Shown: positions 47,048 through 62,349 of the stretch, piece by piece
Layout: every line of letters starts with the position of its first letter
How positions within the stretch are numbered: the stretch's first letter is position 1
From: Deltaproteobacteria bacterium
GTDB taxonomy: Bacteria; Myxococcota_A; UBA9042; DTJE01
NCBI GenBank assembly: GCA_029547805.1
Contig: JAKPOP010000014.1
Coordinates: forward strand, 124,001 to 188,000
Length of the DNA stretch: 64,000 nucleotides
Direction of reading: 5' to 3'
Notes under the pieces: model-generated
Database searches by the model: none
What the model was told of the DNA's origin: nothing
What the model saw: only the letters and a program-made list of their open reading frames with translations
Position numbers and translations under genes: made by a program

Positions 47048-47075
47048 GGGGAGAATCCTTCCTTCGGCCCGATGC

Positions 47076-47104
47076 CTTCTATGCCGAACGGGGCGGCATT
47101 TCAA
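47076..47104 (-). promoter_or_regulatory. predicted promoter of the DUF1846 gene
   Basis: Minus strand TTGAAA (47104-47099), 17-base spacer, TAGAAG (47081-47076), 28 bases before ATG 47047. Confidence 0.55.
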
Positions 47105-48104
47105 GCCCGGGTGGGAGCGACTTCAAGGCCTCGAGCCTGCCGTTGCCGGGATGGGCCGCGCCTGGTCCATATGGAAACGGCCCGTACCTCGAATGCCGTC
47201 CGATGACTTTATCGAAAAATTCAAGGGTTCCGTTGCAACTGGGCGAACTGATGCCCTGGATTGCCGCCCGGGTCTCCACTCCCTCTCTGCCGTGCATCGC
47301 GGCCAACATGGAGCCCGATGGTTCGATGGCGCGGCACGTACGCCGGGAAAAGGCGGCTCGGTTGCGGTGGTTGCCTCCCGCAGTGCACCATGCAGCGTTT
47401 TTTCCCGTGTGGGGCCTAGATGGTGCCTGCGTTGTCCTGGAGAAGGACCCCGAAGAAGGGATGGGCCTGGCCCGGAGACTGGCGGCACTGGTCATTGAGG
47501 CCCGATCGGTTGCTCTGTTCTTCGTGCCTGGACCGGGCAAGCCTGTGATCCTGTCTCTGGACGGGCCTGGGGATCTCCTCCAACGGAAACCTGCGGCCGG
47601 GGATCACTCGATGGGGTGCCCTGATTGCCGAGCCAATTGCACAACCGTCTCCGGAAGCGATGATCCTCGGTTTTCATGGGGACGAAAGCCTTGGGGTGTC
47701 ACGGTTCGTTTCCTGCTCCGGCTGGCGAACCCCGTGCCGGGGGCAGTCCATCGGCCGAGCGATCTGCGGCTGTCGCTGCTCGATAACCATCGTCCTCCAG
47801 GGATCCGTCCTCCCTATCTTCATGCGGTCGAGCGGCTGGTGGGGGTTGCCCTAGGCCGAGCATTTGGGCGCGACCCGGACATTGTCCTTCGGGGAGCTGC
47901 GGAGGATTCCCCCAAGGAGCCTGTTCGTGTGGCACGCCGAAGACGGACGTTTAACGGGAAGAGAATGCCCCTCCGAGGGAACGTGAGGGACAGATCCCGC
48001 TGGGCCTGGTGGCTTCGACCCATGCCGCCGAAGAGGTGCTCTCTCCCTTTTTCTCTCTTCGCTATCGACCAGTTGGAGTTTTTCGAGGACCTGGGGTTTC
48101 CGGT

Positions 48105-48120: not shown

Positions 48121-48333
48121 GTCGAGGCGGTAGACAGGGAAACCAGTCGTCCCCAGGAGGAATCAGCAGGCTCCCTTCGCCGGTCGTTACCGCCGGTTCC
48201 TTTGGACGAGGTGAGCATTGGTGACTACTCCCTACCGGCGACACCGACCTTCCTGGAAGGGGTCTACCCGGTCGTTCTGGGGGTTCCGGTTCTCTGGCTC
48301 ATTGACAATGCTCCGGCGTGCGCTCTGGAACTG

Positions 48334-48354
48334 GGACGTGCCACAGGCACGTCC
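48334..48354. repeat. perfect hairpin, 9-bp stem
   Basis: GGACGTGCC-ACA-GGCACGTCC. It lies 18 bases from a second hairpin, as in REP-type paired elements. Confidence 0.6.
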
Positions 48355-48372
48355 TCCCCTGCACTTCGTGTC

Positions 48373-48409
48373 GGGAGCCGGGGCCCCGCCTCCGGGGCAC
48401 CCGGCTCCC
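48373..48409. repeat. large double hairpin
   Basis: A 10-bp outer stem GGGAGCCGGG/CCCGGCTCCC and a 6-bp inner stem GCCCCG-CCTC-CGGGGC, with one bulged A. There is no T-run on either side, so it is more like a REP element than a terminator. Confidence 0.6.
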
Positions 48410-48529
48410 TCTCCAATGCCTTGCCCTGCTCGTTGTTCCTGTCCCATCTCTTTGGACCTCCTTCCGGGGGCTTCTTACCCCAGTTCCGTGTCCAAGGAAA
48501 TCGGGTGCAGGTCAAGATTTGTCCATGTA

Positions 48530-49205
48530 CAGGACATGGAACACCGGAAGGTGGAAGGTGACGTTACTCGGGAAGAGTTGCGGGCCTATTGCATGACGGG
48601 ACGCACGGGAGTCGACTGCATCGAGACCGGGGGGCCGGAGCCAGGGCGGGGTCGTGCCGGCGTGGTGTTGAACAAAATGCTGCAGGTGGTCGAGCAAACT
48701 CTGGGGTTCCTGCCCCAGAATGGCATCGTAATGAACGACGTGCTGGGAGACGTGGTCGGCGGAGGGTTCGCGATCCCGATGCGTGGGGGCCGGTTCTGCG
48801 AAATCCACATCATCGCGGGGTTCGATGTCGCTTCGACCTGCGCGGCCAATCACATTGTCAGAGCCGTGAGCAACAACGGCAGGACGGGGGCGCGACTTAA
48901 GGGGATTGTGGTCCATCGCGCCATCCCCGAAACAGGACTTTCCCTGCCCAGTCTTGAACGACTGGCGGCGCGGCTTGGCACCCGGGTCGTCGGTGTGCTT
49001 TCGAAAGACCCCCTGCTGATGCGTGCCTTGCCCTGGGTGCGACGGTTCTCGAGGGGTTTCCCGAGAGTCTCCGATGGCCCAGGCCTACCGGGCTCTGAGG
49101 GGCCGGATTGAGGCCGTGCGCCCCACTGATCTGGCCGCGCCGAGTCCCCTGACAAACGAGGAACTGTTTGCGTTCCTGTGCGACGAAGGGGCCTACGGCC
49201 AGCCT
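48530..49205 (+). pseudogene. remnant of a NifH/BchL-like Fe protein, cysteine ligands lost
   Basis: The frame that includes 48218-49111 contains unmistakable Fe-protein sequence: CIETGGPEPGRGRAG (NifH CVESGGPEPGVGCAG), MNDVLGDVVGGGFAIPMRGG (NifH YDVLGDVVCGGFAMPIR) and ERLAARLGTRVVGVLSKDPL. Both Fe-S cysteines are replaced, by Arg (CGT, 48653-48655) and Gly (GGC, 48758-48760), each one base away from a Cys codon. The C-terminal part (AQAYRALRGRIEAV to LTNEELFAFL, about 49075-49190) is in another frame, so a frameshift lies near 49050-49075. The N-terminal P-loop region is not visible upstream. It is therefore judged a decayed gene of the nitrogenase/protochlorophyllide-reductase Fe-protein family. 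No partner subunit gene is recognised nearby. Confidence 0.8.
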
Positions 49206-49278
49206 TCGAGCGACCCTGGGGGCGCCTCGATTCTGGAGTCCGGGCCTTGTGGACGGTTTGCGTCTTCTGCGGTGGCGG

Positions 49279-50358
49279 TCAATGGGCGAGGGAACGAAGG
49301 AGGCTTGAAACCGCTCGGGTTCTTTTCAACCAGGGCAACAGGTCCAGTCCATCCATTCCGATGGCCTCCCAACAGAAACAGGAACGCTGTTTGGATTCCA
49401 TCGCTTGCCGGACTTGTTGTGCGGTCGGGCCTCGCCAGAGGTTCTCCATCTCCTCTTCGGCGAGGTTCCCCAGCACTGATTCGGGCCGTCCATAGCATGC
49501 CAGTACCGTCCCATCCGGCATCAGCACCGCCGAGAGTGATGGAACCACGAGGCATCGAAAGTCTGTCGCCGCGGCCACCGGGTGTTCCAGGACCGACGGC
49601 AGCAGGGCGTAGTAGCGCCGCCGATACTCGGGCCATTGATTCCCAAGGGCTTTCAAGACACGCCGCAGTCGTGGCAGGTCCTCTGCTCGGAGCAGGACCC
49701 CATGGTCCCGGACTGGGTGAATGGAGTTGTTCATCGCCGCCTGGAGCACGACCCGATCGGCCCGTTGCCGCCAGCGGGCCACGATCGCAGGGATGTCCTC
49801 GAGGTTGTCGCGATGCAGGGTGACACGGATGATCAGCTGGGGATGCCGACCCTTCCGATGATGCAATCTTTCGACGGACGCCTCGATCTCTTGGAGCAGT
49901 CCTGGCCGGTTTCGAAAAGTGTCGTGGTCCTGTGGCCGAAGTCCGTCCACGCTCACGACCAAGAGGTCCAGCGAGGCCTGGACCAGTTCGTCCAAGTGCT
50001 CGGCAAGCCCTGCTCCCGAGGTTCCCAGGCTCACGAATTTGTCGGACCGTTTCAACAGAAGAAGAACATCCGGCAACTCCCGGAGCAGCAGAGGCTCGCC
50101 CCCAATCAACGATACCCAGCGAACACCCGATCTGGCCACTCGTCTTGCTAGTTCCAGGGGGTCCCGGCGCGGGCCGGACCGGGGCTTCATGTCACAATGG
50201 CGACAACGCAAGGGGCACTGTTCGACCACCGCCCATGTCAGTGCCAGAGGATGGCGCAACCAGCGGGTTCCCAGGAAGAGGTCGAATCCCCCATGGACGA
50301 GGGGAAGGCCCAGTCTCCGCAGGTCCCGAATGTCCAGTGTCCCACCCGCGATTCTCAT
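49279..50358 (-). CDS. radical SAM protein with SPASM/twitch-like C-terminus
   Basis: A 359-residue radical-SAM enzyme. The cluster motif CPLRCRHC (Cys48, 52, 55) binds the 4Fe-4S that cleaves SAM. LIGGEPLLLRELP is the GGE motif near 85. The C-terminal region has RCLVVPSLSAVLMPDGTVLACYG, a VLGNLAEEEMENLWRG stretch and CFCW, the layout of SPASM/twitch domains that bind an extra cluster. Such enzymes modify peptides, sugars or lipids. Its start overlaps the end of the PLP-enzyme gene as ATGA, so the two are coupled and probably act in one pathway. Confidence 0.85.
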   Translation of the reverse strand: MRIAGGTLDIRDLRRLGLPLVHGGFDLFLGTRWLRHPLALTWAVVEQCPLRCRHCDMKPRSGPRRDPLELARRVARSGVRWVSLIGGEPLLLRELPDVLLLLKRSDKFVSLGTSGAGLAEHLDELVQASLDLLVVSVDGLRPQDHDTFRNRPGLLQEIEASVERLHHRKGRHPQLIIRVTLHRDNLEDIPAIVARWRQRADRVVLQAAMNNSIHPVRDHGVLLRAEDLPRLRRVLKALGNQWPEYRRRYYALLPSVLEHPVAAATDFRCLVVPSLSAVLMPDGTVLACYGRPESVLGNLAEEEMENLWRGPTAQQVRQAMESKQRSCFCWEAIGMDGLDLLPWLKRTRAVSSLLRSLAH

Positions 50359-51614
50359 GGACTTCTATCTACCGAGGCCACTGCATGGACAACCCGTTCG
50401 AGGTCCTGGTCAGACATGCAGGAATGCAGAGGCAGATAGAGCATGTCGTCGCAATAGGACTCGGCGTTGGGACAAAAAACCCGGAACTCCTGGAAGGCCG
50501 GTTCCCGGGAGACGCAGGGCAGATTGGTCGGCACGGCATCCACTCCGAGTTGCGCCAGGCGGACCGCGGCGGCCGTTCGGTTGCGCGGCCACCATGGAAG
50601 GCGCCAGAAGCCCGGGTTCGCCCCGGGGGGCACTTTCGGGAGGCCCACGACGCCAGCGTCTTGCAAAGATCGGAGCAGGCGGTTGCCCAGGTCTCGTCGC
50701 CGATTCAACCGCTGATCGAGGTCCTTCAGGAGGTGTAGCGCGATGGCCGCCTGGACGCCCGAGTATCGACGAAACATGCCCTCCGGAAACGACTCCCGCC
50801 GCGCGATGGTGTCATCGTAGTTCTTCCAGGGGCCGAAGGCCCCGATCTGGGCCCTGCGAACCGCCGAGGGCCTGGTTCGTTCCAGCCTCCGAATCGCGGG
50901 ATGCACCAGATGACCAAACAGGAGAGGCTCAGTGGCCACTTTCAGGATGCTGTCCCGGATCCACCAGCCCAGCAATGTGGACCAACGCTCCGTGGCCCAC
51001 GAGTCCGAGACTCGTCGAAGCGTGCGTGCGATGCGTGGATCCCGAACCAGGGCCAGGCCGCCATGGAACGAGCACAGGGGCTTCAGGGTGGTGAGGCTGC
51101 AGACCGATCCGTCTCCGAATGTGCCGAGAGGCGAGCCGTTCCAGAATGCCCCATGAGCCTGGGAGAAGTCCTCGATCAGGAACAACCCTCGGGCTCGCGC
51201 GAAGGATGCGATGTGGTCCATGTCCGCCGGAAACCCCGCGAGATGGGTGACCAGGATGCCGCAGGTGCGGGCGTTCGTCGCGGCGGACATTGCCTCAAGG
51301 TCCATCGAGCAGGATCGGAGCCCAAGGTCCACGAATACCGGCCGGAGCCCGGCCAGCAGGATGGCGTTGACCACATCCGGGATCGTGACCGGCGTGAGGA
51401 GGACCTCCATTCCTGGGCGGATCTCCATCGCCAGGAGCATCTCGTAGACCCCGATGCGGGCATGAGGCATCGCAACTGCGTAGAGACCGGGATATCGAGC
51501 CTCCATTGCGGACTCGAATCTCGAGACGACCTCCCGGTCCGGCGGCTTCCCAAGCAGATAGCCCAGCGACCGAAGTGGCCGGAAATCGACCTCTGCCCGA
51601 GGGACGACCCTCAT
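50355..51614 (-). CDS. DegT/DnrJ-like PLP-dependent aminotransferase
   Basis: About 419 residues, starting at ATG 51614 (ATG 51659 is an alternative). It has the fold markers of the DegT family in less conserved form: AMPHARIGVYEMLLAM (cofactor phosphate region), TPVTIPDVVNAILLAGLRPVFVD, FLIEDFSQAHGAFW (Asp and the QAHG motif) and VCSLTTLKPLCSFHGG, where the Lys is the probable Schiff-base residue. The extended C-terminal half contains aromatic-rich GFWRLPWWPRNRT. It may act on a non-sugar ketone. It is coupled to the radical-SAM gene downstream and divergent from the UbiA gene. Confidence 0.8.
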   Translation of the reverse strand: MRVVPRAEVDFRPLRSLGYLLGKPPDREVVSRFESAMEARYPGLYAVAMPHARIGVYEMLLAMEIRPGMEVLLTPVTIPDVVNAILLAGLRPVFVDLGLRSCSMDLEAMSAATNARTCGILVTHLAGFPADMDHIASFARARGLFLIEDFSQAHGAFWNGSPLGTFGDGSVCSLTTLKPLCSFHGGLALVRDPRIARTLRRVSDSWATERWSTLLGWWIRDSILKVATEPLLFGHLVHPAIRRLERTRPSAVRRAQIGAFGPWKNYDDTIARRESFPEGMFRRYSGVQAAIALHLLKDLDQRLNRRRDLGNRLLRSLQDAGVVGLPKVPPGANPGFWRLPWWPRNRTAAAVRLAQLGVDAVPTNLPCVSREPAFQEFRVFCPNAESYCDDMLYLPLHSCMSDQDLERVVHAVASVDRSP

Positions 51615-51806: not shown

Positions 51807-52685
51807 TTGGGGGATGTCGTTGGGTTCGGCGGTTCTGTTCCCGGCAGACCGTCCCATCCGGTCGTGCTGGGGCTTCGGGCCATGCGCGTCCACCACTGGT
51901 GGTATTTTGCACTGTTGCCAATGGCGGCCTTTCCCAGGCTGCTGCGGTGGCCACCGGAACTGGATTCGGAAACGGCGATTCGCTTGCCGCTGGCCATCGG
52001 GGTCGCCCTGACCGCCCTGGCCCATGCCTACCTGGTCAATGCCGTTTCGGACCGGCAGATGGATCGCAATCCCCGGAAGAACGCCCTTCCCCCCGAAGGA
52101 CCTTTGCCGGTTTTCGTGCCCTGGCTTGCGGTCATTCTGGCGACCAGTTCCGTCGGGATGGCGACGATGCTGGGCCCCTTGGCGCTCTCGGCGGCCCTCA
52201 TCAGCATCGTTGCCGGGACGATCTACAGCCTGCCTCCGCGCCTCAAGAGTCTTCCGTTCCTGGGGCTGGTCGGAAACGCCCTGATCTTTTTTCCTCTTCT
52301 GTTTCTGGGATTTCAGCACATCGAACAGATCACGCCGGAGATCCAGGCGATGGGCGTGGTGTTCCTGACCTTGTTGACCCAGAACCAGTTGGTGCATGAA
52401 CTGGCGGATCGGGAAGAGGACGCGGCCCGAGGGGACCGTACCACCGGGAGAACGCTGGGGACCTGGGGCACCGCCGGGGCCCTCGTCGTCCTGGGAGGGA
52501 GTGGGCTGGTCGCGGTTGCCAGGGTTCTGCCAGGGCAAGACCGGTCCTGGGCGGCCTTCTGTGGTCTCGGGTGCTCGACGCTGCTCTGTTGCGCCCTGCT
52601 GGGGCATCCCTCGCTTGCAAGGCGCCTCCACCGTGTCCTGGCCCTGGTCGTCGGGGCCTTGCTGTTCGCGCAGGCGTCGGGATGA
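51807..52685 (+). CDS. UbiA family prenyltransferase
   Basis: A 292-residue membrane prenyltransferase with about nine helices. It carries the first Asp-rich motif NAVSDRQMDRNPRKN (NxxxDxxxD) and a second, HELADREEDAARGD, both of which bind magnesium-diphosphate. The family attaches polyprenyl chains to aromatic rings, sugars or glycerol phosphates. LGLRAMRVHHWWYFALLP is the usual N-terminal segment, so the longer start at 51807 is kept rather than the ATG at 51882, which would cut into it. Its stop overlaps the next radical-SAM gene as ATGA. Confidence 0.85.
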   Translation: MGDVVGFGGSVPGRPSHPVVLGLRAMRVHHWWYFALLPMAAFPRLLRWPPELDSETAIRLPLAIGVALTALAHAYLVNAVSDRQMDRNPRKNALPPEGPLPVFVPWLAVILATSSVGMATMLGPLALSAALISIVAGTIYSLPPRLKSLPFLGLVGNALIFFPLLFLGFQHIEQITPEIQAMGVVFLTLLTQNQLVHELADREEDAARGDRTTGRTLGTWGTAGALVVLGGSGLVAVARVLPGQDRSWAAFCGLGCSTLLCCALLGHPSLARRLHRVLALVVGALLFAQASG

Positions 52686-53677
52686 GGAAACCTCCGATCC
52701 AGGCATGGAAGGCTCTATGGCAGTGGATTCGCTATCGTCGCGTTCCCCTCTCGGTGACTTTCGTGCTGACCAACCGATGCAATCAGACCTGCTCCTACTG
52801 CGACATCCGGACGGACCGGTCCATGGAGATGTCCACCGATGCATGGATCGCCGCGCTGCAGGAATTTCACTCCCTCGGGCTTGTCCGGGCCTCCTTCAGC
52901 GGGGGCGAGGTGTTGCTGCGCGCCGACCTCTCCCGGATTCTTTCGGAGGCGCGGTCTCTCGGGATGACGACCTCGATCAACACGAACGGCTCGCTGCTGG
53001 CAGATCGGTGGCCCGAGATCGCCCCATGGCTCGACATGCTCGTGCTTTCGCTGGACGGTCCTCGGGAGGTCCACGATGCACGATGTGGGAGGCGCGGTTC
53101 CTTTGACCGGGTGCTGGAGGCGATTCGGCTGGCGCGTCGGTCCGGGGTACCGGTGGCCACCATCTTCGTTGCGGACCGGGACAATCTGGCTACCTTGCCG
53201 TTCGTGATGGAAATGGGGGCGCGCGAGGGATTCTTCGTCTACGTGCAGCCTCGCCACGCCTCCTGTTTCTCTGTGGACCAGGGGCTTGGGGATCTCGATT
53301 CGGATTTCCTGCAGCACCTTGGGCACATGTTGGAGCGGGCTCGGCGCCTGGGCCTTCCGATCGGAGCCTCGAGGTCCTTTGTGGCCACGCTCTTGGACCC
53401 AGAACAGGTTCCGTCGTGCCGTGCCTGCGCCGCGGGCAACTTCTTCGCGACCGTGCTGCCGGACGGCGAGTTGATCCCGTGCCATCTGACCCGTCGGGAG
53501 CATCCGCGAGACCTGGTGGCGCAGGGGGGGGTCGAGAAGGCCTGGAGGAGCCTGGCCCATCCGTGGACCGGGCGCGGGTGCCTCATTGCGCCTTATCAGG
53601 AGTTGAACAGGATGTTTCATCTGGACCCCGAGGCGATTCGCAGTGCCCTGATGCGGCTGGCTGGACGGCGCAGGTGA
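52682..53677 (+). CDS. radical SAM protein coupled to UbiA
   Basis: A 331-residue radical-SAM enzyme: CNQTCSYC (Cys33, 37, 40), SFSGGEVLLRADL (GGE motif), SINTNGSLL and LVLSLDGPREVHDARCG, the classical TIM-barrel strand motifs. CRACAAGNFFATVLPDGELIPCHL in the C-terminus suggests a truncated SPASM-like site with extra Cys. The first bases overlap the UbiA stop, so the two are made together. The product could alter the prenylated compound. I cannot name a specific family such as PqqE or HpnH. Confidence 0.85.
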   Translation: MRKPPIQAWKALWQWIRYRRVPLSVTFVLTNRCNQTCSYCDIRTDRSMEMSTDAWIAALQEFHSLGLVRASFSGGEVLLRADLSRILSEARSLGMTTSINTNGSLLADRWPEIAPWLDMLVLSLDGPREVHDARCGRRGSFDRVLEAIRLARRSGVPVATIFVADRDNLATLPFVMEMGAREGFFVYVQPRHASCFSVDQGLGDLDSDFLQHLGHMLERARRLGLPIGASRSFVATLLDPEQVPSCRACAAGNFFATVLPDGELIPCHLTRREHPRDLVAQGGVEKAWRSLAHPWTGRGCLIAPYQELNRMFHLDPEAIRSALMRLAGRRR

Positions 53678-53788: not shown

Positions 53789-55411
53789 CTAGAGTTCTGC
53801 GGACGTTCCGATACGGTCCGGTCCTCCGGACCCGTTGACTGTCTGTGAGGGCGCCGGGGCGTTCGCGTCCTCCCCGAACAGCGGACCTGGGACCGTCAGG
53901 TAATCCTTCCGAGGTAGCAAGGCTTGCAGCATCGTGCGGCCGTAGATTCGTCCGTAGATCTTCCAGTCCAGACTGCCCCGAAGGGCGGAGCACCCGACGT
54001 CCATCAGGAAGGGGATGGCCCGGGCCACGGGCACGGGCAGCCTCCGGAAGGCTCCCCGGGGCAGGATCCTGCGCAACCGATCGCCCAGTAGCGGCAGGCT
54101 CTTCAGGATGGTTTCGTAGTACAGGTAGTCCTGCAGCATTGCGCCTTCAATGCCCGCACCCTCCACCAGTTCCGGGGTGTAGTACGAGGTCACCTCGCCA
54201 CGAGCAATGCATTCCGCCTCCTCCTCAGAGACCCGTCCCTCCTGGACGGCGTCCAACAGCATCTTCGTTCCGGGAAGGTAGCGAAACCAGAAAGTGGCGA
54301 TGCGCTCGGGTCCGATGCGGGCGAAGTAACGGATTGCCTCGTCAAGGGTTTCGAGGGGTTCCTCGGGAATCGCCAGAATCTGGTCCATCCGCACCCGAAT
54401 GCCGGCGCTCTTCAAAGCCCATGCACTGGCCGCGATTCGTTCCTGGTGCTGCCATCCGCGATCCATGCGTCTCAGACTCTGAGTGTCGAGCGACTGCACC
54501 CCCAGAATCACCATCTCGCAGCCGGCGTTTCGGAGGCTGCGGGCCATCTGGTCGTCCACCCGTGTCGGTACTGTCTGGCACGAAAACGGGATACCGATCT
54601 CGTTTCGGTATTGCGGCAGAAACTCGAGCATCCAGCGTCGATTCGTGAGAAAGACGTCATCGAAGAATTCGACCCATTTTGGCGCGTAGCGTTGCTTCGC
54701 CAGACGCAACTCCTTGAGCACGTGGCCTGGCGATCGCATCCTGAGGCGTCGAGAGGGGCTCGTCGTCAGGTCGTGCCAGAAACTATTGAAGCAGAAGGCA
54801 CAATGCATTGGGCAACCGCGGCCTGCCATGACCCCATAATTGAGGGAGAGGTCGATCGCGTCTTCATACAGCCCCTTGTCGGGGAAAGGCAGGTCGTCCA
54901 GGTTTCCGACAGCTCGCGCGGGGGCGCCAGGAAGCGGTTCGCCATTCGGCCCCCGGGTCCAGAAGCCGGGCACCAGGCGTGTCGGCCGCCCGTCGGCCAG
55001 CGCGATCAACAGTTCCTCGAAGGCGAGTTCTCCTTCCCCGACGCAGCCGGCGTCCACGGAAGGCTCCGATAGCATCGTACGAGGCACCGCGGATGCGTGG
55101 GGACCCCCGAAGAGGATCATCGGTGTCGGGCCCAGCGTCTCTCGCACCTTCCGGGCCGTGGACAGCGCCCATCGACAAGAGGGGGCGGTGGGTGAGAAGA
55201 GCACGACGTCGGGTTGCCAGGCCGCCAGTGCCCCCAGGAACCCGACCCGGGAGGTTCGATTTCCAAGCAAGTCCGTGTCGAGGTAGTTCCGATCTCCGAA
55301 GGCCGCCGGGCTGAAGGCCAGGCGCACCTCGTGGCCTCGACGCCGTGCGACGGCGCTGAGAATCTCGAAACCCATCTTTTCGAGACCCTCCGAGACAAAG
55401 GCTAGGCGCAT
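53789..55411 (-). CDS. cobalamin-binding-domain radical SAM protein
   Basis: A 540-residue class-B-like radical-SAM enzyme. The N-terminal B12-binding-type Rossmann domain (about 1-145) shows FVSEGLEKMGFEILSAVARR, QPDVVLFSPTAPSCRWA, MILFGGPHASAVP and CVGEGELAFEELL. The radical-SAM core has GRGCPMHCAFC (Cys200, 204, 207) and LGVQSLDTQSLRRMDRG. The usual DxHxxG His of B12-ligating proteins is absent, as in other members of this class. Relatives methylate hopanoids or form rings in tetraether lipids, among many other jobs. ATG 55411 follows a good promoter. It is transcribed toward the UbiA-radical SAM pair. Confidence 0.85.
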   Translation of the reverse strand: MRLAFVSEGLEKMGFEILSAVARRRGHEVRLAFSPAAFGDRNYLDTDLLGNRTSRVGFLGALAAWQPDVVLFSPTAPSCRWALSTARKVRETLGPTPMILFGGPHASAVPRTMLSEPSVDAGCVGEGELAFEELLIALADGRPTRLVPGFWTRGPNGEPLPGAPARAVGNLDDLPFPDKGLYEDAIDLSLNYGVMAGRGCPMHCAFCFNSFWHDLTTSPSRRLRMRSPGHVLKELRLAKQRYAPKWVEFFDDVFLTNRRWMLEFLPQYRNEIGIPFSCQTVPTRVDDQMARSLRNAGCEMVILGVQSLDTQSLRRMDRGWQHQERIAASAWALKSAGIRVRMDQILAIPEEPLETLDEAIRYFARIGPERIATFWFRYLPGTKMLLDAVQEGRVSEEEAECIARGEVTSYYTPELVEGAGIEGAMLQDYLYYETILKSLPLLGDRLRRILPRGAFRRLPVPVARAIPFLMDVGCSALRGSLDWKIYGRIYGRTMLQALLPRKDYLTVPGPLFGEDANAPAPSQTVNGSGGPDRIGTSAEL

Positions 55412-55439
55412 GATCGTCTCACGACTGTTCTCTAGGGTA

Positions 55440-55590: not shown

Positions 55591-57330
55591 GTGCTGGTAG
55601 CCGTGGAATGGGTGGCTGGGATCGTGTTGGTTGCCATTGTTGTCTGGTTCGCCATCCGACTGGTGCGGACCACCGTTCGGGACCTGTCCGAAGGACCTTT
55701 CCCTTCGGGGCGGCGAGCGGCATTGATGGCCCTGGCGCTGATGGGCGTTCTGGTACCGGTGCGCCACCTGTTGGTGCCGATCTCGTTTTCTCACAGCAAC
55801 TACTTTGGCCCTCAACTTCTGGATGCCGTTTTGGGGTACGGAGGGCTTCGAATCCGGGAGTACGGCCCCCTTGGTTTCCTGTTCTACCGAGTACCTGCGA
55901 CTCTGGGACGCGACCCCCTCGAGGCATTGGCATTGACCAATGGGCTCCTCTCCGCTCTGGCGTCTTTCGCCCTATCGGCCGCGCTTGCACTGGGCACTAG
56001 GAGGCCCGCGGTGCTGCCGTGGGGGATGGCGCTCTCACTGCTGCACCCGATGGTGGCCCGCCTGTCCCTTTCGGAGGATGCCATTCTTCTGAACCTGTTC
56101 CTGTGCTTCTTTGCATTTCACCAGACGGTTCGTTTCTTGATGCGGCAGGACCGGACATCGGGGATGCTGGCGCTGTCTGCCGCGATTCTGGCCCTGTGGA
56201 CCCGCCAGATCGGCTTCCCCTGGCTCCTGGCAACCTTTCTGGTCCTGCCTCTGGTGACCAGGAAGGCCTCCCGGTGCATGGCGTTGGCCCTCTCGGGCAC
56301 CTTCCTGTTGCTGCTGGCGGTTCGCGTGTTCGAGGACCTCGGGACCGACGATCGTGTGAGTTATGAACTCCTGGCTGGATTTCTGAAGGCCCCCTCGTGG
56401 TGTCTTGCCGCTCTGGTTCGCCATCCACTGGTCGATCCCGCGGCTGCCGCGGTCCTGCTGCCGCTGCTTGTGGTCGGTGTCGCGGCGATTCGCCGAAGTC
56501 CCGTGGCAGGTCTCTTTCTGGCTGCCTTCCTGGTTGCCTTCCTGGCCACGGCTGTTGCAGGCCTGGACAATATCGGGGATGGAATCGGCTTTCGTTCGCC
56601 AGCCCTGTTTGCCGGAATCGCCCTGGGAGGGGCAGGTCTTGACGCGTTCATGCGCTGGATGCCAAGAGGAACCTGGGGCCGGTCGGGTCTCCGGTGGCTA
56701 CTGAGTATGGGGGCACTGGCCAACGGACTGATTCTTCCTGCCTCGGAATGGGCATTTCGGGTCTCTCCAGAGACTCGGGAATACCGTTATCTCGAGGCCG
56801 TGATTCCCTTTCTGGGCGACTTCTACGCCCTAAGGACCTTTCGGTCCTGGCGATATTCGCCGGACCTCGTGCCACCCCAGCACCTGTTTCGACGGTCGGG
56901 CCGCGAGGTGGAGGTCCTGGACATCCGAGAAGCGACCGGTCATCGCAGAAACCTGGTGTTGCTGGGACTCTATTGCGATGTCAGGTCCGTTGCGGAGTTG
57001 TACTACCAGAGTCAGTGCGCCTGCGGACTCCTTCCTCGGGACGAGGACCCGGACGCGATGGCCGTCCAACAACGCCTTCCGTTGGACGAGTTTCTGGCGG
57101 AATCTGCCCAGGGACGCTTGCCAATCGGAATCGAACGTCCGACGGACGAGCGGGCGATCTGCAAGTTGATTCGTCGGTTCGGCCATCCGGTGAGTCCCTC
57201 CTGGGTGCTTCCTCCAGGACCGGATGACGTTCCATTCGGAGTGTGGACCGGCAAGGACGTGACGCTGGAGATCGTCGAGATCGACGACGAGGACTTGGCG
57301 ATGCTGCGCTCCGTCTGCATGGAACAATGA
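55591..57330 (+). CDS. polytopic membrane protein, GT-C glycosyltransferase-like
   Basis: A 579-residue protein starting at GTG 55591. The first 380 residues hold about eleven membrane helices, with YFGPQLLDAVLGYGGLRIREYGPLGF after the second helix, a loop that recalls the ArnT/PMT (GT-C) family, although no DxD or ExD pair is certain. The last 190 residues are soluble and contain a Cys-rich stretch (YCDVRSVAELYYQSQCACGLL). The family is not identified. In an island with UbiA and radical-SAM enzymes, a polyprenyl-linked substrate is plausible but unproven. Confidence 0.7.
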   Translation: MLVAVEWVAGIVLVAIVVWFAIRLVRTTVRDLSEGPFPSGRRAALMALALMGVLVPVRHLLVPISFSHSNYFGPQLLDAVLGYGGLRIREYGPLGFLFYRVPATLGRDPLEALALTNGLLSALASFALSAALALGTRRPAVLPWGMALSLLHPMVARLSLSEDAILLNLFLCFFAFHQTVRFLMRQDRTSGMLALSAAILALWTRQIGFPWLLATFLVLPLVTRKASRCMALALSGTFLLLLAVRVFEDLGTDDRVSYELLAGFLKAPSWCLAALVRHPLVDPAAAAVLLPLLVVGVAAIRRSPVAGLFLAAFLVAFLATAVAGLDNIGDGIGFRSPALFAGIALGGAGLDAFMRWMPRGTWGRSGLRWLLSMGALANGLILPASEWAFRVSPETREYRYLEAVIPFLGDFYALRTFRSWRYSPDLVPPQHLFRRSGREVEVLDIREATGHRRNLVLLGLYCDVRSVAELYYQSQCACGLLPRDEDPDAMAVQQRLPLDEFLAESAQGRLPIGIERPTDERAICKLIRRFGHPVSPSWVLPPGPDDVPFGVWTGKDVTLEIVEIDDEDLAMLRSVCMEQ

Positions 57331-57347: not shown

Positions 57348-57382
57348 ATTGGGGGTTTTCACTGCTCTTGGGCCGTCGCGGC

Positions 57383-57444: not shown

Positions 57445-58794
57445 ATGGGGGCAGTCATCGAATCGCCCTCCCCTCAGGTTCCCGGCAAGGTCCTTCGCCG
57501 GACCGAGTCCCTCTGCCCAACCTGTGGTCGGGTTTGCCAGGCTCGCGTGGTGCAGCGCGACAGGGCGGTCTTCCTGCAACGAACCTGTCCTCTGGACGGC
57601 GCTACCGAGGTTCGACTGAGCCGGGACGCGGATTGGTATCACTCCCTCTCGGCCACGCTGCACGACACGCGTTCTCCCAGGCTGATCCACTCTCCCCTGC
57701 GAGTCGAAGACCCGGTTCGCGGCGTCTTCGTGGACGTGACCTCCCGGTGCAATCTGCATTGTCCGAACTGCCTCTCCAATGTGCAACCCGGGGTTCCGGA
57801 GCAGGCACCGACTCTTCCGGCACTGCTGGAGTCCTTGAGGGCCATGCATCCGGCTCGACCGGTGGTCTATCTGGGGGGAGGCGAGCCCACCATTCGCCCC
57901 GATCTGCCAGAGTGGATCCGGGTGCTGCGGGCGCAAGGCCATGCGGTCAAGCTGCTCACGAACGGACTTCGGCTGGCGGATATCGACTACTGCAGGGCCT
58001 TGCAGCAGGCAGGGGTCACCTGGGTCTGTCTGCAGTTCGATTCCCTCGAGGAGGGGCATCTGGCGCGGATTCGGGGGCGACGGGGGTTGTCAAGAGCCAG
58101 GCAGGACGCGTTGAGGAACCTCTCGACGCTTGGGATGAACGTGGACCTGGCCTGCATGATCGACCGGGAGACCAACTTCCATTCCCTGGGCGATCTGGTA
58201 CGACTGGGACTCTCGACACCGGGCGTCCGGCATGTCTCCCTGATGCCCTCTCGACGGATCGGAAGGGGACGACTGACCGATTCCGAATCCTTTTTGGAGG
58301 ACATTGATCTGGTGGAGGCACTTGAGGATCAGACCGACGGCGCCGTAACTCGACAGGATTGGTTGTGGTTCCAGCGGATCACCTCAGCGATCTACCGATT
58401 GACCGGACGCGCGGACTGGAAGCCTCGGCGGTGCTTTCTGGCCCTTCCCCTCGTGGGGGAGGCCCGGAGGTTCGCTCCCTGGACCCGGCCCTGGAAGTTC
58501 GCCTTCGACACCCAGGACGTTGAGGCCGTTCTCCGGACGGCCCTGCACCGGGGTCCTGTCGAGGAGGCAAGGTGGAGCGAGAGGACACTCTTGCTCTCCA
58601 TCGAGAGTTTCTGGGAGCCAGAGAACATCGATTTGCTTGAGGCCTCCCGGTGCAACCGCTACTACCTCGTGGACGGGACGCTGCGACAGGCCTGCATCTA
58701 CAACGTGCTGAACCGACCGGTTCGGGAATGGCCGGGCGTTGCTCAATCGAGCGGCTCGCCTCGTCGCATGTCCGAGGAAATCCAGACACCCTAG
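57445..58794 (+). CDS. radical SAM protein of the tetraether-lipid-synthase (Tes)/COG1964 type
   Basis: About 449 residues from ATG 57445, which has GGGAGG upstream; ATG 57427 is possible. The N-terminus has the metal-binding layout LCPTCGRVCQARVVQRD then LQRTCPLDGATEV and DADWYHSL, the conserved opening of COG1964 proteins. The radical-SAM core follows: DVTSRCNLHCPNC (Cys102, 106, 109), YLGGGEPTIRPDLPEWI, LLTNGLRLADIDYCRAL and WVCLQFDSLEEGHL. The C-terminus has SIESFWEPENIDLLEASRCNRYY and LRQACIYNVL, matching the family's final conserved region. The characterised archaeal member Tes joins lipid tails to make tetraethers. Whether this protein couples lipids is not shown; the family contains other activities. 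Confidence 0.83.
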   Translation: MGAVIESPSPQVPGKVLRRTESLCPTCGRVCQARVVQRDRAVFLQRTCPLDGATEVRLSRDADWYHSLSATLHDTRSPRLIHSPLRVEDPVRGVFVDVTSRCNLHCPNCLSNVQPGVPEQAPTLPALLESLRAMHPARPVVYLGGGEPTIRPDLPEWIRVLRAQGHAVKLLTNGLRLADIDYCRALQQAGVTWVCLQFDSLEEGHLARIRGRRGLSRARQDALRNLSTLGMNVDLACMIDRETNFHSLGDLVRLGLSTPGVRHVSLMPSRRIGRGRLTDSESFLEDIDLVEALEDQTDGAVTRQDWLWFQRITSAIYRLTGRADWKPRRCFLALPLVGEARRFAPWTRPWKFAFDTQDVEAVLRTALHRGPVEEARWSERTLLLSIESFWEPENIDLLEASRCNRYYLVDGTLRQACIYNVLNRPVREWPGVAQSSGSPRRMSEEIQTP

Positions 58795-59648: not shown

Positions 59649-59657
59649 ATCCTAACA
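59649..59657 (-). promoter_or_regulatory. possible extended -10 promoter
   Basis: Minus strand TGTTAGGAT, about 30 bases before TTG 59618. It fits TG-n-TAnnAT, with no clear -35. Confidence 0.35.
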
Positions 59658-60788
59658 CGCCTCGTTCTTTCTGGGCCCGAAGGAGCATCTCCTGCAAACA
59701 GGAGAGGGACTTCGCCCCGCCAACAGACCGGATTTCAGGTTCCTGGCCATCTCCCCGGAGAGCAGGTTGGTCAACGGATGCTCCAGCAAATTCCCCAAGG
59801 CGTCCTGGGGATGCACCATCCTCTGGCACGGAAAGACGAACCCGCGCGAATCGACCCGGACCTTGTACCACGGGGCCGTCCAGACGACGGGCCACTGGTT
59901 TTTCAGGAGTTCCTCGTCCTGGACATCCCATCTCCCATCAGCAGGACCGCCTGTTCCTTCGGGAGAGAAGGACGCGGAGGCTCTGGAAGAATCACCATGA
60001 CGTTGCGTCGCTTCTCCTCGATCTTCAATCTGGTCAGGGCGATTCGAAGCACCTCTCCTTCCATGCCCCGGAACCGCACGATGCGGCTCCGAACGGCCGG
60101 CCGACCCACCACGAGTTGGGAAAGATGCATGCGGAAGATGCCCAGAACGGCGATCTTCCGAAGAGTGGTATCCAGAAACGGCAACGTTATCGACGTGATG
60201 AGAGCCTGAACACCCACCTGGAGCCGATTCCACCGCGCGTGTCGCAGGAAGGGGACCAGGTTCTTTCGGGGTCTTGGCCAGGTGGACAGAGGCCGAAGTC
60301 AGGCGTAGATCATCTGGGACCGTCGTGTCGATGGACAGGAGCAGGGTGTCGAGGCCCGCTGCCGCCAACGTCTCTCGGAATTCCGGAGTCAACTGACTCC
60401 CGGAGGTCAACAGGCAGGGTTCGGGTCGTGATGCCTGCCGGTACCGTTTGGATCGCAAGGTCCGAATGTGGCGAGGCAGGTCGGGGTCCATCAATGGTTC
60501 GTGTCGGCAGCCGAAAGAGATGTCGTGGGCCAAGGGCTGCACTTCACGCGAGACGGCCTGCGACCACTCATCTCCCGCACAGTGCTGGCTGCGATGGCCT
60601 GTGGGATGGCGAATACGGCATCGCAGGTGACAACTCTTCGTGGGGTCCAGCAGCACCGACCCGCGGCCACGGCCTGGGTCCATCCAGAGGTATCGGGTCA
60701 GGGAGGCTAGACCCGATCCCGCGCGGCGGAGCCTGGCGATTTCGATACGCAGGGGAAGGAGCCGATCAGAAGAGGGAATCGTACGCAT
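59652..60788 (-). pseudogene. degenerate radical SAM/SPASM gene with two frameshifts
   Basis: The outer parts of a radical-SAM/SPASM protein lie in one frame, and the middle in another. The start (ATG 60788) encodes DPTKSCHLRCRIRHP, a CX3CX2C motif whose third Cys is Arg (CGC for TGC), then FGCRHEPLMDPDLPRHI and LDTLLLSIDTTVPDDL. From about 60260 to 59935 the sensible reading is in the second frame (NLVPFLRHARWNRLQVGVQ, then ITLPFLDTTLRKIAVLGIF). The last part returns to the first frame (APWYKVRVDSRGFVFPCQ, VCRRCSFGPRKNEAC), typical of SPASM. Two compensating indels and the lost cluster ligand mark it as inactive. A good promoter remains, with the RNA start at the ATG. Confidence 0.8.
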
Positions 60789-60825: not shown

Positions 60826-60933
60826 GCATTACCTGGACCAGCCTGATCCAGGTGGCATTGAAAGGGTCTCTTCGGTCCACTGGACCGGTGGAACACGATG
60901 GCCAGGCCCACGAGGCGCTCCGGGAAGTTCCGT

Positions 60934-62349
60934 TCAAGCCCGGGTGGGCCGGTGGTCCATCGCGAAATAGGTCCGGGTCCGCTCCACCACCTCGGGGGAG
61001 AGGATCAGGAGGGCGATCAGGTTGGGGACCGCCATGAGCGTCAGCACCGCGTCCACGAACTTCCAGACCATCTCCTTGGCCCAGACGGCCCCGATGAAGA
61101 CGAAGAGGCAGTAGAGGTAGCGGTAGGGGACCACGAAACGACGCCCGAGCAGGTAGCCGACGGCCCGGTCCCCGTAGTAGGACCAGGAGATGGCCGTGGT
61201 GAAGGAGAAGAGCAGCAGGGAGACCGAGACGACCACGCCTCCGACCTGGAGTCCCAGGACCGTCAGGTCCAGGCCCGTCTCGAAGGCCTGGTAGGACATC
61301 GCGGCGCCCATCTTTCCCGAGGACCAGGCCCCGGTGAGCAGCAGCACCATGCCGGTCATCGTGCAGATGATCAGGGTGTCCACGAGGGGCTCCAGAAGGG
61401 CCACGAGCCCCTCCCGCACCGGGTACTCGGTCCGGGCGGCCGCATGGGCGATGGGGGCCGATCCCTGTCCGGCCTCGTTGCTGAAGAGTCCCCGGGCGAT
61501 GCCATAGCGGGCCGTCAGCAGGAACGTGGACCCCAGGAACCCGCCCGTTGCGGCGGTGCCCGTGAAGGCCCCCTCGAAGACCAGTCGGAACATCGTCGGC
61601 AACCGGTCGTATTCGAAGGCGATCACGGCCAGGCAGGCCGTCACGTAGAACAGTGCCATGAACGGGACCAGTCGCTCGGCCACCGAGGCGATCCGGCGGA
61701 TGCCGCCCAGGATCACGGCCCCCACGAGTCCCGCCAGCACGAGCCCCGAGAGCCAGGTGGGGATTCGCAGGCCATCCCTGAGGTCGAAGGCGTGGATTGC
61801 GTCGGCCATGGAGTTGCTCTGAGCCATGTTGCCGGTCCCGAGGCTGCACAGGACGGTGCCGACGGCAAAGAGGATCGCCAGGGGCTTCGCCATGGGGCCC
61901 AGGACCCGGGAGGCGGCCCGCTCGATGTAGTACATGGGACCGCCACTGACGCTGCCGTCGGGGTGGACCTCCCGGTACTGCTGGGCCAGCGTGCACTCGG
62001 CATACTTGGTGGCCATTCCGAAGAAGCCGGTCATCCAGAGCCAGAAGAGGGATCCGGGTCCGCCGTAGTAGATCGCCAGGGCCACGCCGGCGATGTTGCC
62101 GGTGCCCACCGTGGCCGAGAGGGCCGTGCAGAGGGCCTGGAAGTGGCTCACGTCGCCGTGGTCCCCGGGGCGGTCGTAGCGGCCCATCACGAGGTCCTTC
62201 GCGTGTCGCAGGCCCCAGACCTGGATGAGCCGGAGTCGGATCGTGAACCAGATCCCCACCGGGAGCAGCAGCGCCATCAGCGCGTAGGTGCCCACGTAGG
62301 TGTTGTAGGCGTCCAGGACCCGTCCGATCGCCTGGCTGACGTCGTTCAT
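60934..62349 (-). CDS. sodium:alanine/glycine symporter (AGCS family)
   Basis: A 471-residue inner-membrane symporter with about eleven helices. Family landmarks: ALSATVGTGNIAGVALAIYYGGPGSLFWLW, KYAECTLAQQYRE, GSVSGGPMYYIER, GTGNMAQSNSMADAI and FSNEAGQGSAPIAHAAA. AGCS proteins import alanine or glycine with sodium. It starts one base after the stop of the NSS symporter gene, so the two are co-transcribed. The length is normal and no odd residues are seen. Confidence 0.93.
   Translation of the reverse strand: MNDVSQAIGRVLDAYNTYVGTYALMALLLPVGIWFTIRLRLIQVWGLRHAKDLVMGRYDRPGDHGDVSHFQALCTALSATVGTGNIAGVALAIYYGGPGSLFWLWMTGFFGMATKYAECTLAQQYREVHPDGSVSGGPMYYIERAASRVLGPMAKPLAILFAVGTVLCSLGTGNMAQSNSMADAIHAFDLRDGLRIPTWLSGLVLAGLVGAVILGGIRRIASVAERLVPFMALFYVTACLAVIAFEYDRLPTMFRLVFEGAFTGTAATGGFLGSTFLLTARYGIARGLFSNEAGQGSAPIAHAAARTEYPVREGLVALLEPLVDTLIICTMTGMVLLLTGAWSSGKMGAAMSYQAFETGLDLTVLGLQVGGVVVSVSLLLFSFTTAISWSYYGDRAVGYLLGRRFVVPYRYLYCLFVFIGAVWAKEMVWKFVDAVLTLMAVPNLIALLILSPEVVERTRTYFAMDHRPTRA

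Follow-up and report, generated by a model that had tools for sequence, protein, structure and literature searches.

The window analysed here, a 64,000-nucleotide stretch of DNA, contains at positions 57445..58794 (+ strand) an intact open reading frame (ORF) of 449 amino acids, whose product, TesL, was identified as a Tes-fold radical SAM enzyme from its sequence, Pfam matches, a PDB search and a predicted structure. The ATG at 57445 has a GGGAGG sequence a short way on its 5′ side; a longer version of the ORF could begin at the TTG at 57349. TesL matches two Pfam families, Radical_SAM (PF04055, 4e-19) and Zn_ribbon_HMPTM (PF23545, 5.4e-12). Its motifs comprise CPTC (residues 24-27) and C48, the CX3CX2C of the radical SAM (RS) cluster (C102, C106 and C109), GGEPTIRPDLPE, LQFDSLEEG and, near the C-terminus, C403 and C417. 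C24, C27 and C48 make up a zinc-ribbon or rubredoxin-like arrangement with D51 in the fourth position. A sequence-only reading of this DNA had reported the ORF and most of these motifs (CxxC with a later Cys, the radical SAM core, QFDSLEEG and a C-terminal Cys), and all of them are present. In the PDB sequence search 7TOL came first at 9e-38, well ahead of an entry at 1.3e-9. No other Tes-like gene was found in the source genome: among 22 matches, TesL is followed by a generic radical SAM hit at 59 bits.

The tesL gene lies in an island of about 13.8 kb with low GC3, values in the island genes being 0.70-0.80 as opposed to 0.91-0.93 in the two flanking genes. In a genome of the same genus (G001), both flanking genes (proteins 95% and 93% identical) adjoin each other at a distance of about 110 bases, whereas 13.8 kb separate them in the window. 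DNA similarity between the window and G001 ends at 47048 and starts again at 60934, and no TesL match was found in G001. The island is bounded by an exact 16-bp direct repeat, TTCAAGCCCGGGTGGG, with the left copy at 47100..47115 (+) and the right copy at 60933..60948 (+), where the AgcS transporter gene has its 3′ end. Sixteen shared bases were found in none of 2975 random pairs of same-size stretches within the window. As the AgcS gene ends with the right copy of the repeat, the island looks as if it had been inserted at that gene's 3′ end. No integrase was recognised among those island ORFs that were scanned, which make up part of the total, and no RNA element reached the gathering score between 46800 and 61300. 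An assembly artefact is conceivable; we favour a real unit because the island genes recur together elsewhere.

From left to right, the island opens with a decayed remnant of a NifH/frxC-family Fe-protein gene (48218..49255, +). The match (PF00142, 6.7e-27) covers profile positions 69-216 of 271; the frame is broken, the P-loop part is unmatched and both cluster-ligand Cys positions are replaced. Three near full-length NifH-family matches (240-272 bits) exist elsewhere in the source genome. The remnant is followed by the gene for rSAM_B, a radical SAM/SPASM protein (49279..50358, -) 39% identical to its counterpart in an uncultured bacterium, R4_Bin_Bin_91 (CALHXW010000314.1; here G028), and by that for a DegT/DnrJ-family PLP aminotransferase (50355..51611, -; a longer called ORF is over-extended), whose K188, in the numbering of the aligned segment, is invariant in three homologues. 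Next come a UbiA-family prenyltransferase gene (51807..52685, +), the Asp-rich motifs of which (D82/D86 and D201/D205) are conserved in G028, and the gene for rSAM_A (52571..53677, +; start uncertain), a radical SAM protein with a C-terminal Cys-rich, SPASM/twitch-like part, 42-47% identical to homologues in G028 and G038. All four of these genes, those for DegT, UbiA, rSAM_A and rSAM_B, are intact and conserved. A B12-binding radical SAM protein (53789..55417, -) is HpnJ-like at a low score, 106.3 bits against a cut-off of 577.6. Between it and TesL is the gene for a polytopic membrane protein of 579 amino acids (55591..57330, +) with no Pfam hit, a probable GT-C/PMT_2 relative. A PMT_2 protein from G028 also matches two homologues of it from other genomes, so that this protein is likely of the GT-C type; an attempt at assignment by structure gave no usable model (pLDDT 37.9). 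To the right of TesL are P281 (58791..59636, -), a protein of 281 amino acids with one N-terminal membrane helix and no Pfam family, and, at the island's right end, the gene for rSAM_C (59652..60788, -), a radical SAM/SPASM gene (SPASM PF13186, 8.5e-7) in which the frame is broken.

Homologues of five island genes are found within 6 kb in G028, a distant genome, at 43% identity for TesL, 39% for both DegT and rSAM_B, 35% for UbiA and 46% for rSAM_A. The TesL, DegT and rSAM_B genes overlap there on one strand, and additional radical SAM genes as well as the one for the PMT_2 membrane protein belong to the cluster. The G028 stretches compared contain no NifH-like match. Upstream of the G028 cluster (L025, 4339-6285 and 6681-8060) lie two PapB-like radical SAM genes with 43% mutual identity. 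When rSAM_A homologues were sought in 377 genomes, a UbiA gene turned out to lie close by in 11 of the 14 contexts examined (11 fetched, plus G038, G028 and the window), the contexts without it being two contigs of less than 4 kb and one genome, G059. Another cluster, in G372 (L178, 2359-13269), includes DegT (39-41%), rSAM_B (37-46%), two rSAM_A-like genes, UbiA and PMT_2, and adjoins genes for a Trp_halogenase (3.4e-107), a Cupin_8 protein and an FGE-sulfatase-domain protein. Of all these genes, the one for the putative tryptophan halogenase points most clearly to specialised-metabolite clusters. TesL was not detected in the 15-kb stretch of G372; as TesL is thus not in every such cluster, the link between TesL and UbiA rests on two genomes (G000 and G028). 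Two of the remaining TesL relatives also have radical SAM genes around them: in G011 the gene stands amid DegT, several B12-binding radical SAM genes and an rSAM_B-like gene, and in G376 amid three B12-binding radical SAM genes and an NAD epimerase gene. None of the cluster partners accompanies the relative in G052, which belongs to the same five-row group in the tree described below. A comparison of the 111 small island ORFs with the G028 and G372 stretches turned up no convincing RiPP precursor, the hits being either weak or antisense shadows of known genes.

The structure of TesL was predicted with AlphaFold2 from a folding alignment (A2) of 63 of the 78 family ORFs, giving a model with pLDDT 86.5 and pTM 0.89. 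Aligned with VIA-align to Mj0619 (Tes, or GDGT-MAS; 7TOL/7TOM, NF045702), the model superimposes on 7TOL over 401 residues at 2.8 Å, with Z 38.5 and 26% identity; the next unrelated entry, MoaA, has Z 20.9. Both Tes entries are on top of the Foldseek results as well, and the other entries in the list of structure matches come in through the radical SAM core. The tetraether-synthase architecture that had been read from the sequence is thereby borne out. With PF23545, PF04055 and the Tes fold together, TesL belongs to the Tes-fold superfamily, and it has in common with Tes a zinc-ribbon or rubredoxin-like N-terminal domain, CX3CX2C, GGEPT, two C-terminal Cys and the Tyr459 position.

The metal sites of Mj0619 are described in the accessible text of PMC9433317. 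They comprise, besides the RS cluster, a rubredoxin site (C9, C12, C33 and H36), a cluster named [Fe4S4]N (C73, C77, C80 and a His) and a cluster named [Fe4S4]C with a labile Met439; Tyr459 is close to the substrate, and the intermediate observed contains a C-S bond from the substrate to [Fe4S4]C. These sites were compared across 79 rows, namely Mj0619 and 78 related ORFs from fetched loci (112 family ORFs were found and 34 duplicates dropped). In Mj0619 numbering, TesL retains C9, C12, C33, the three RS Cys, C455, C470 and Tyr459, the last three corresponding to its C403, C417 and Y407. At the H36 position TesL has an Asp next to the three rubredoxin Cys it has kept. The CPLDG sequence that the earlier reading had singled out here is real, the position being His in 73 rows, Cys in 4 and Asp in 2; it is not common to the G028 homologue (42-43% identity), which retains the His. 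TesL has, in the alignment, none of the [Fe4S4]N ligands (C73, C77, C80 and H83). Loss of these ligands is a weak discriminator, as they are likewise missing from 16/16 bacterial Tes homologues. In the phylum sampled, these 16 rows (L082-L097) are the bacterial homologues closest to archaeal Tes; they keep Met439, Tyr459 and the cap, and with the [Fe4S4]N ligands absent from all 16, the published architecture of four metal centres is not universal among them.

At the C-terminal site, TesL has Ile at C438 and, like the G028 homologue, Glu at Met439. The Cys ligands of this cluster in Tes were derived in the present work from conservation and not from PMC9433317. C330 of TesL lies one column off C338, where the automatic alignment places an Arg, and fits if one hairpin residue is deleted; it may be the third ligand. 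A C-terminal auxiliary cluster held by C330, C403 and C417 is therefore best regarded as probable in TesL.

Twelve core positions, those that PMC9433317 in its accessible text names around 5′-dAH, methionine, water or the closing loop, were also compared. Five are kept in TesL (N108, G145, D199, R210 and R275) and seven are changed (F106, Y195, V236, T238, Q268, S271 and T273). In the 16 bacterial Tes homologues, 10 of the 12 are unchanged; Asp replaces N108 and Lys replaces R210 in 16/16, and a single row has Ser for T273. Another difference concerns the stretch from the hairpin to the last strand, which we call the cap and which was matched to the description in the available part of PMC9433317 by reading of the sequence; in Tes this stretch is expected to contribute the amphipathic helices that belong to the second lipid pocket. 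The cap measures 75 residues in Mj0619, 74-78 in 16/16 bacterial Tes homologues, 61-80 in 36 TrsS-like rows and 68-69 in the 21 rows of a sister clade, as against 32 in TesL and its G028 homologue and 35 in G011, G376 and G052. All that the TesL model shows in this stretch is one low-confidence helix (356-367). The lost cap points to some substrate other than a pair of bilayer phytanyl chains. Hence the earlier statement that the protein keeps every conserved block of its family, to which that reading gave the label COG1964, is wrong: the [Fe4S4]N ligands are gone, Met439 and C438 are replaced and the cap has 32 residues in place of 75.

Family profiles gave low scores. Against NF045702, the NCBIfam equivalog for Tes, TesL scores 143.9 bits (127.9 bits in the genome search) with a cut-off of 450. 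None of 282 genomes of the phylum passes this cut-off, which also shuts out the 16 bacterial Tes homologues, the best of them reaching 365 bits. The highest NCBIfam score of TesL, 150.5 bits, is with NF045646 (TrsS), whose cut-off of 490 is passed by none of 235 genomes of the phylum. The phylum samples were even draws of 235 to 377 genomes rather than complete sets, and contigs were scanned for relatives with two narrow peptide patterns, blind to distant members. Plasmid-borne relatives number 7 in 72,556 records, all below 33% identity.

In a tree of the 79 rows, TesL pairs with the G028 homologue (100/100), then with G011, G376 and G052 (98/79), and this five-row group joins the 21-row sister clade (100/98). 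A different clade (99/85) unites Mj0619 with the 16 bacterial Tes homologues, and the TrsS-like rows are its neighbours. Forcing TesL and its G028 homologue into the Tes clade was rejected (AU p 0.0127). In a second tree, restricted to the core, from which 16 near-identical rows were left out and to which four named rows (haloarchaeal, mycobacterial and Persicobacter) were added, the TesL clade is still separate (96), and the deeper order, at 85, is different: the bacterial Tes rows do not group with Mj0619 and are nearer to the TesL clade than Mj0619 is. Separation of the TesL clade, itself sparsely sampled, from Tes is well supported; its deep position is not, because long branches are present and only one archaeal Tes is included. 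The sequence-only reading had named two outcomes that would speak against a lipid role, and the findings lean that way for both: clade placement sets TesL apart from Mj0619 and the 16 sampled bacterial Tes homologues, and, as to the hydrophobic tunnel, the segment expected to form the second lipid pocket is much shortened. On account of the score below 450, the separate clade, the AU value and the short cap, Tes orthology of TesL was rejected; so was TrsS membership, with 150.5 against 490 bits and a place outside the TrsS-like clade in both trees.

We give about even chances to the reading that TesL, with its Tes fold, is a tailoring enzyme in a mobile biosynthetic cluster rich in radical SAM proteins, the core of which makes and modifies a specialised molecule. 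This interpretation starts from what is seen of TesL: fold, clade, RS Cys, loss of the N-cluster ligands, short cap, conserved neighbourhood and island borders. That core would consist of prenyl transfer by UbiA, transamination by DegT, rSAM_A and rSAM_B, and the GT-C-like membrane enzyme. SAM bound at the CX3CX2C cluster of TesL would be cleaved to a 5′-deoxyadenosyl radical, which would abstract a hydrogen from an unactivated carbon of a cluster intermediate. The substrate radical might then be held or quenched at the auxiliary [4Fe-4S] cluster (C330, C403 and C417) next to Y407, in the manner of [Fe4S4]C in Tes, and the outcome would be a C-C (or C-S) bond. Functionalisation of an unactivated carbon of the cluster's molecule through the RS cluster is the most likely activity, in keeping with the fold and with the conservation of the RS, C403, C417 and Y407 positions; the presence of the auxiliary cluster and the subsequent bond formation are presumed by analogy with Tes. 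An isoprenoid-bearing substrate is plausible, given the UbiA in the cluster, and TesL may act on the prenylated product, with the chain that UbiA has added. A more specific proposal, which we put forward as doubtful, is that a branch of the Tes fold was recruited from lipid coupling to natural products, losing the cap and keeping the RS and C-terminal auxiliary clusters, and that it joins two unactivated carbons, by intramolecular ring closure or by a cross-link, in a prenylated and aminated intermediate supplied by UbiA and DegT; the fourth rubredoxin ligand would have become Asp along the way.

The auxiliary cluster could also serve as sulfur donor or radical trap in sulfur insertion or thioether formation, in place of C-C coupling. 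A C-S bond from substrate to [Fe4S4]C has been seen in Tes (PMC9433317, accessible text), and Glu in place of the labile Met439, in TesL as in its G028 homologue, points to a different coordination sphere. We nevertheless hold this chemistry to be unlikely: no sulfur-metabolism gene was recognised among the island genes scanned, and the C-terminal cluster is itself only probable.

TesL could be non-functional, since the island is partly decayed, with a NifH remnant and a broken rSAM_C gene, and the H36 to Asp change, absent from the G028 homologue, might be taken as a sign of the same process. Set against this are the intact frame for 449 amino acids, the full set of RS Cys, C403, C417 and Y407, a plausible start and ribosome site, and the intact, conserved state of the neighbouring DegT, UbiA, rSAM_A and rSAM_B genes, so that a decaying enzyme in a degenerating island seems improbable.

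The sequence-only reading had suggested synthesis of tetraethers or membrane-spanning lipids. The common fold, the RS cluster and the equivalents of C455, C470 and Y459 are what such a synthase would have; N108 and R210 are kept by TesL even though the 16 bacterial homologues differ from Mj0619 there, and the neighbouring UbiA could handle isoprenoid chains. Bacterial Tes homologues have moreover been proposed by Zeng et al. for brGDGTs (PMC8941075, in the part available). For TesL itself a lipid role must be judged very unlikely, and lipid coupling is not supported. The protein forms a separate clade and scores far below the Tes cut-off, its cap is reduced from 75 to 32 residues, and it differs from Mj0619 at F106, Y195, V236, T238, Q268, S271 and M439, where 16/16 same-phylum bacterial homologues match, and at T273, where 15/16 do; unlike TesL, these homologues retain the cap and the majority of the Tes active-site residues. 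Its gene belongs to a sporadic mobile island of biosynthetic type, with no match in the same-genus genome and no recognisable lipid operon. Least probable of all is that TesL is a TrsS-type protein, a radical SAM partner of a methyltransferase that also occurs in haloarchaea: TrsS gives the highest NCBIfam score and related radical SAM genes adjoin a methyltransferase gene in Haloarcula, Salinirubellus and Mycolicibacterium, but the score is far under the cut-off, both trees place TesL outside the TrsS-like clade, all four [Fe4S4]N ligand positions kept in the 36 TrsS-like rows are lost in TesL, and Pfam, in those island genes that were scanned, revealed no class I methyltransferase.

The methyltransferase next to TrsS is presumably the protein that goes by the name TrsM. 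Tes-like radical SAM genes beside a methyltransferase gene were observed on plasmids of Mycolicibacterium, Salinirubellus and Haloarcula (L126, L127 and L129). Haloarchaea are reported, in the available portion of PMC8941075, to make archaeol only. The name TrsS and the GMGT enzyme are treated in PMC13188914 and PMC11186832, as far as their accessible text goes.

The closest counterpart of TesL is its G028 homologue, which has the same short cap, C-terminal Cys and DegT, rSAM_B, UbiA and rSAM_A neighbours; it differs in the His at the fourth rubredoxin position and in the two PapB-like radical SAM proteins of its cluster. The 21-row sister clade shares with TesL the lack of a full [Fe4S4]N set and the larger clade, but has the longer cap and, in the contexts compared, none of the cluster partners except in G059, where a B12-binding radical SAM gene and a DegT gene are near. 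In at least one of its members (L072, 8518-10410) the Tes-like radical SAM part is preceded, in the same protein, by a fused hemerythrin domain at the N-terminus (PF01814 1.1e-17, PF23545 5.5e-14).

Radical SAM enzymes of the Tes superfamily were already known, and the TesL group is a cap-less, cluster-associated variant of them. Within the literature searched, on the island gene set and on COG1964 with radical SAM, no account of such a group was found, which is weak evidence of absence. Bacterial homologues of the lipid type are discussed in the available portions of PMC8941075 and PMC11868695, where genome surveys take bacterial Tes-like genes as possible evidence of membrane-spanning lipids. 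Membership of the Tes fold alone is not enough for such a conclusion. Cap length, Met439 and several active-site residues, kept in 16/16 rows of the lipid-type group, separate that group from the other clades and so offer a way to filter candidates. Should TesL indeed work in a biosynthetic cluster, Csp3-Csp3 type radical chemistry would extend from lipids to specialised metabolites.
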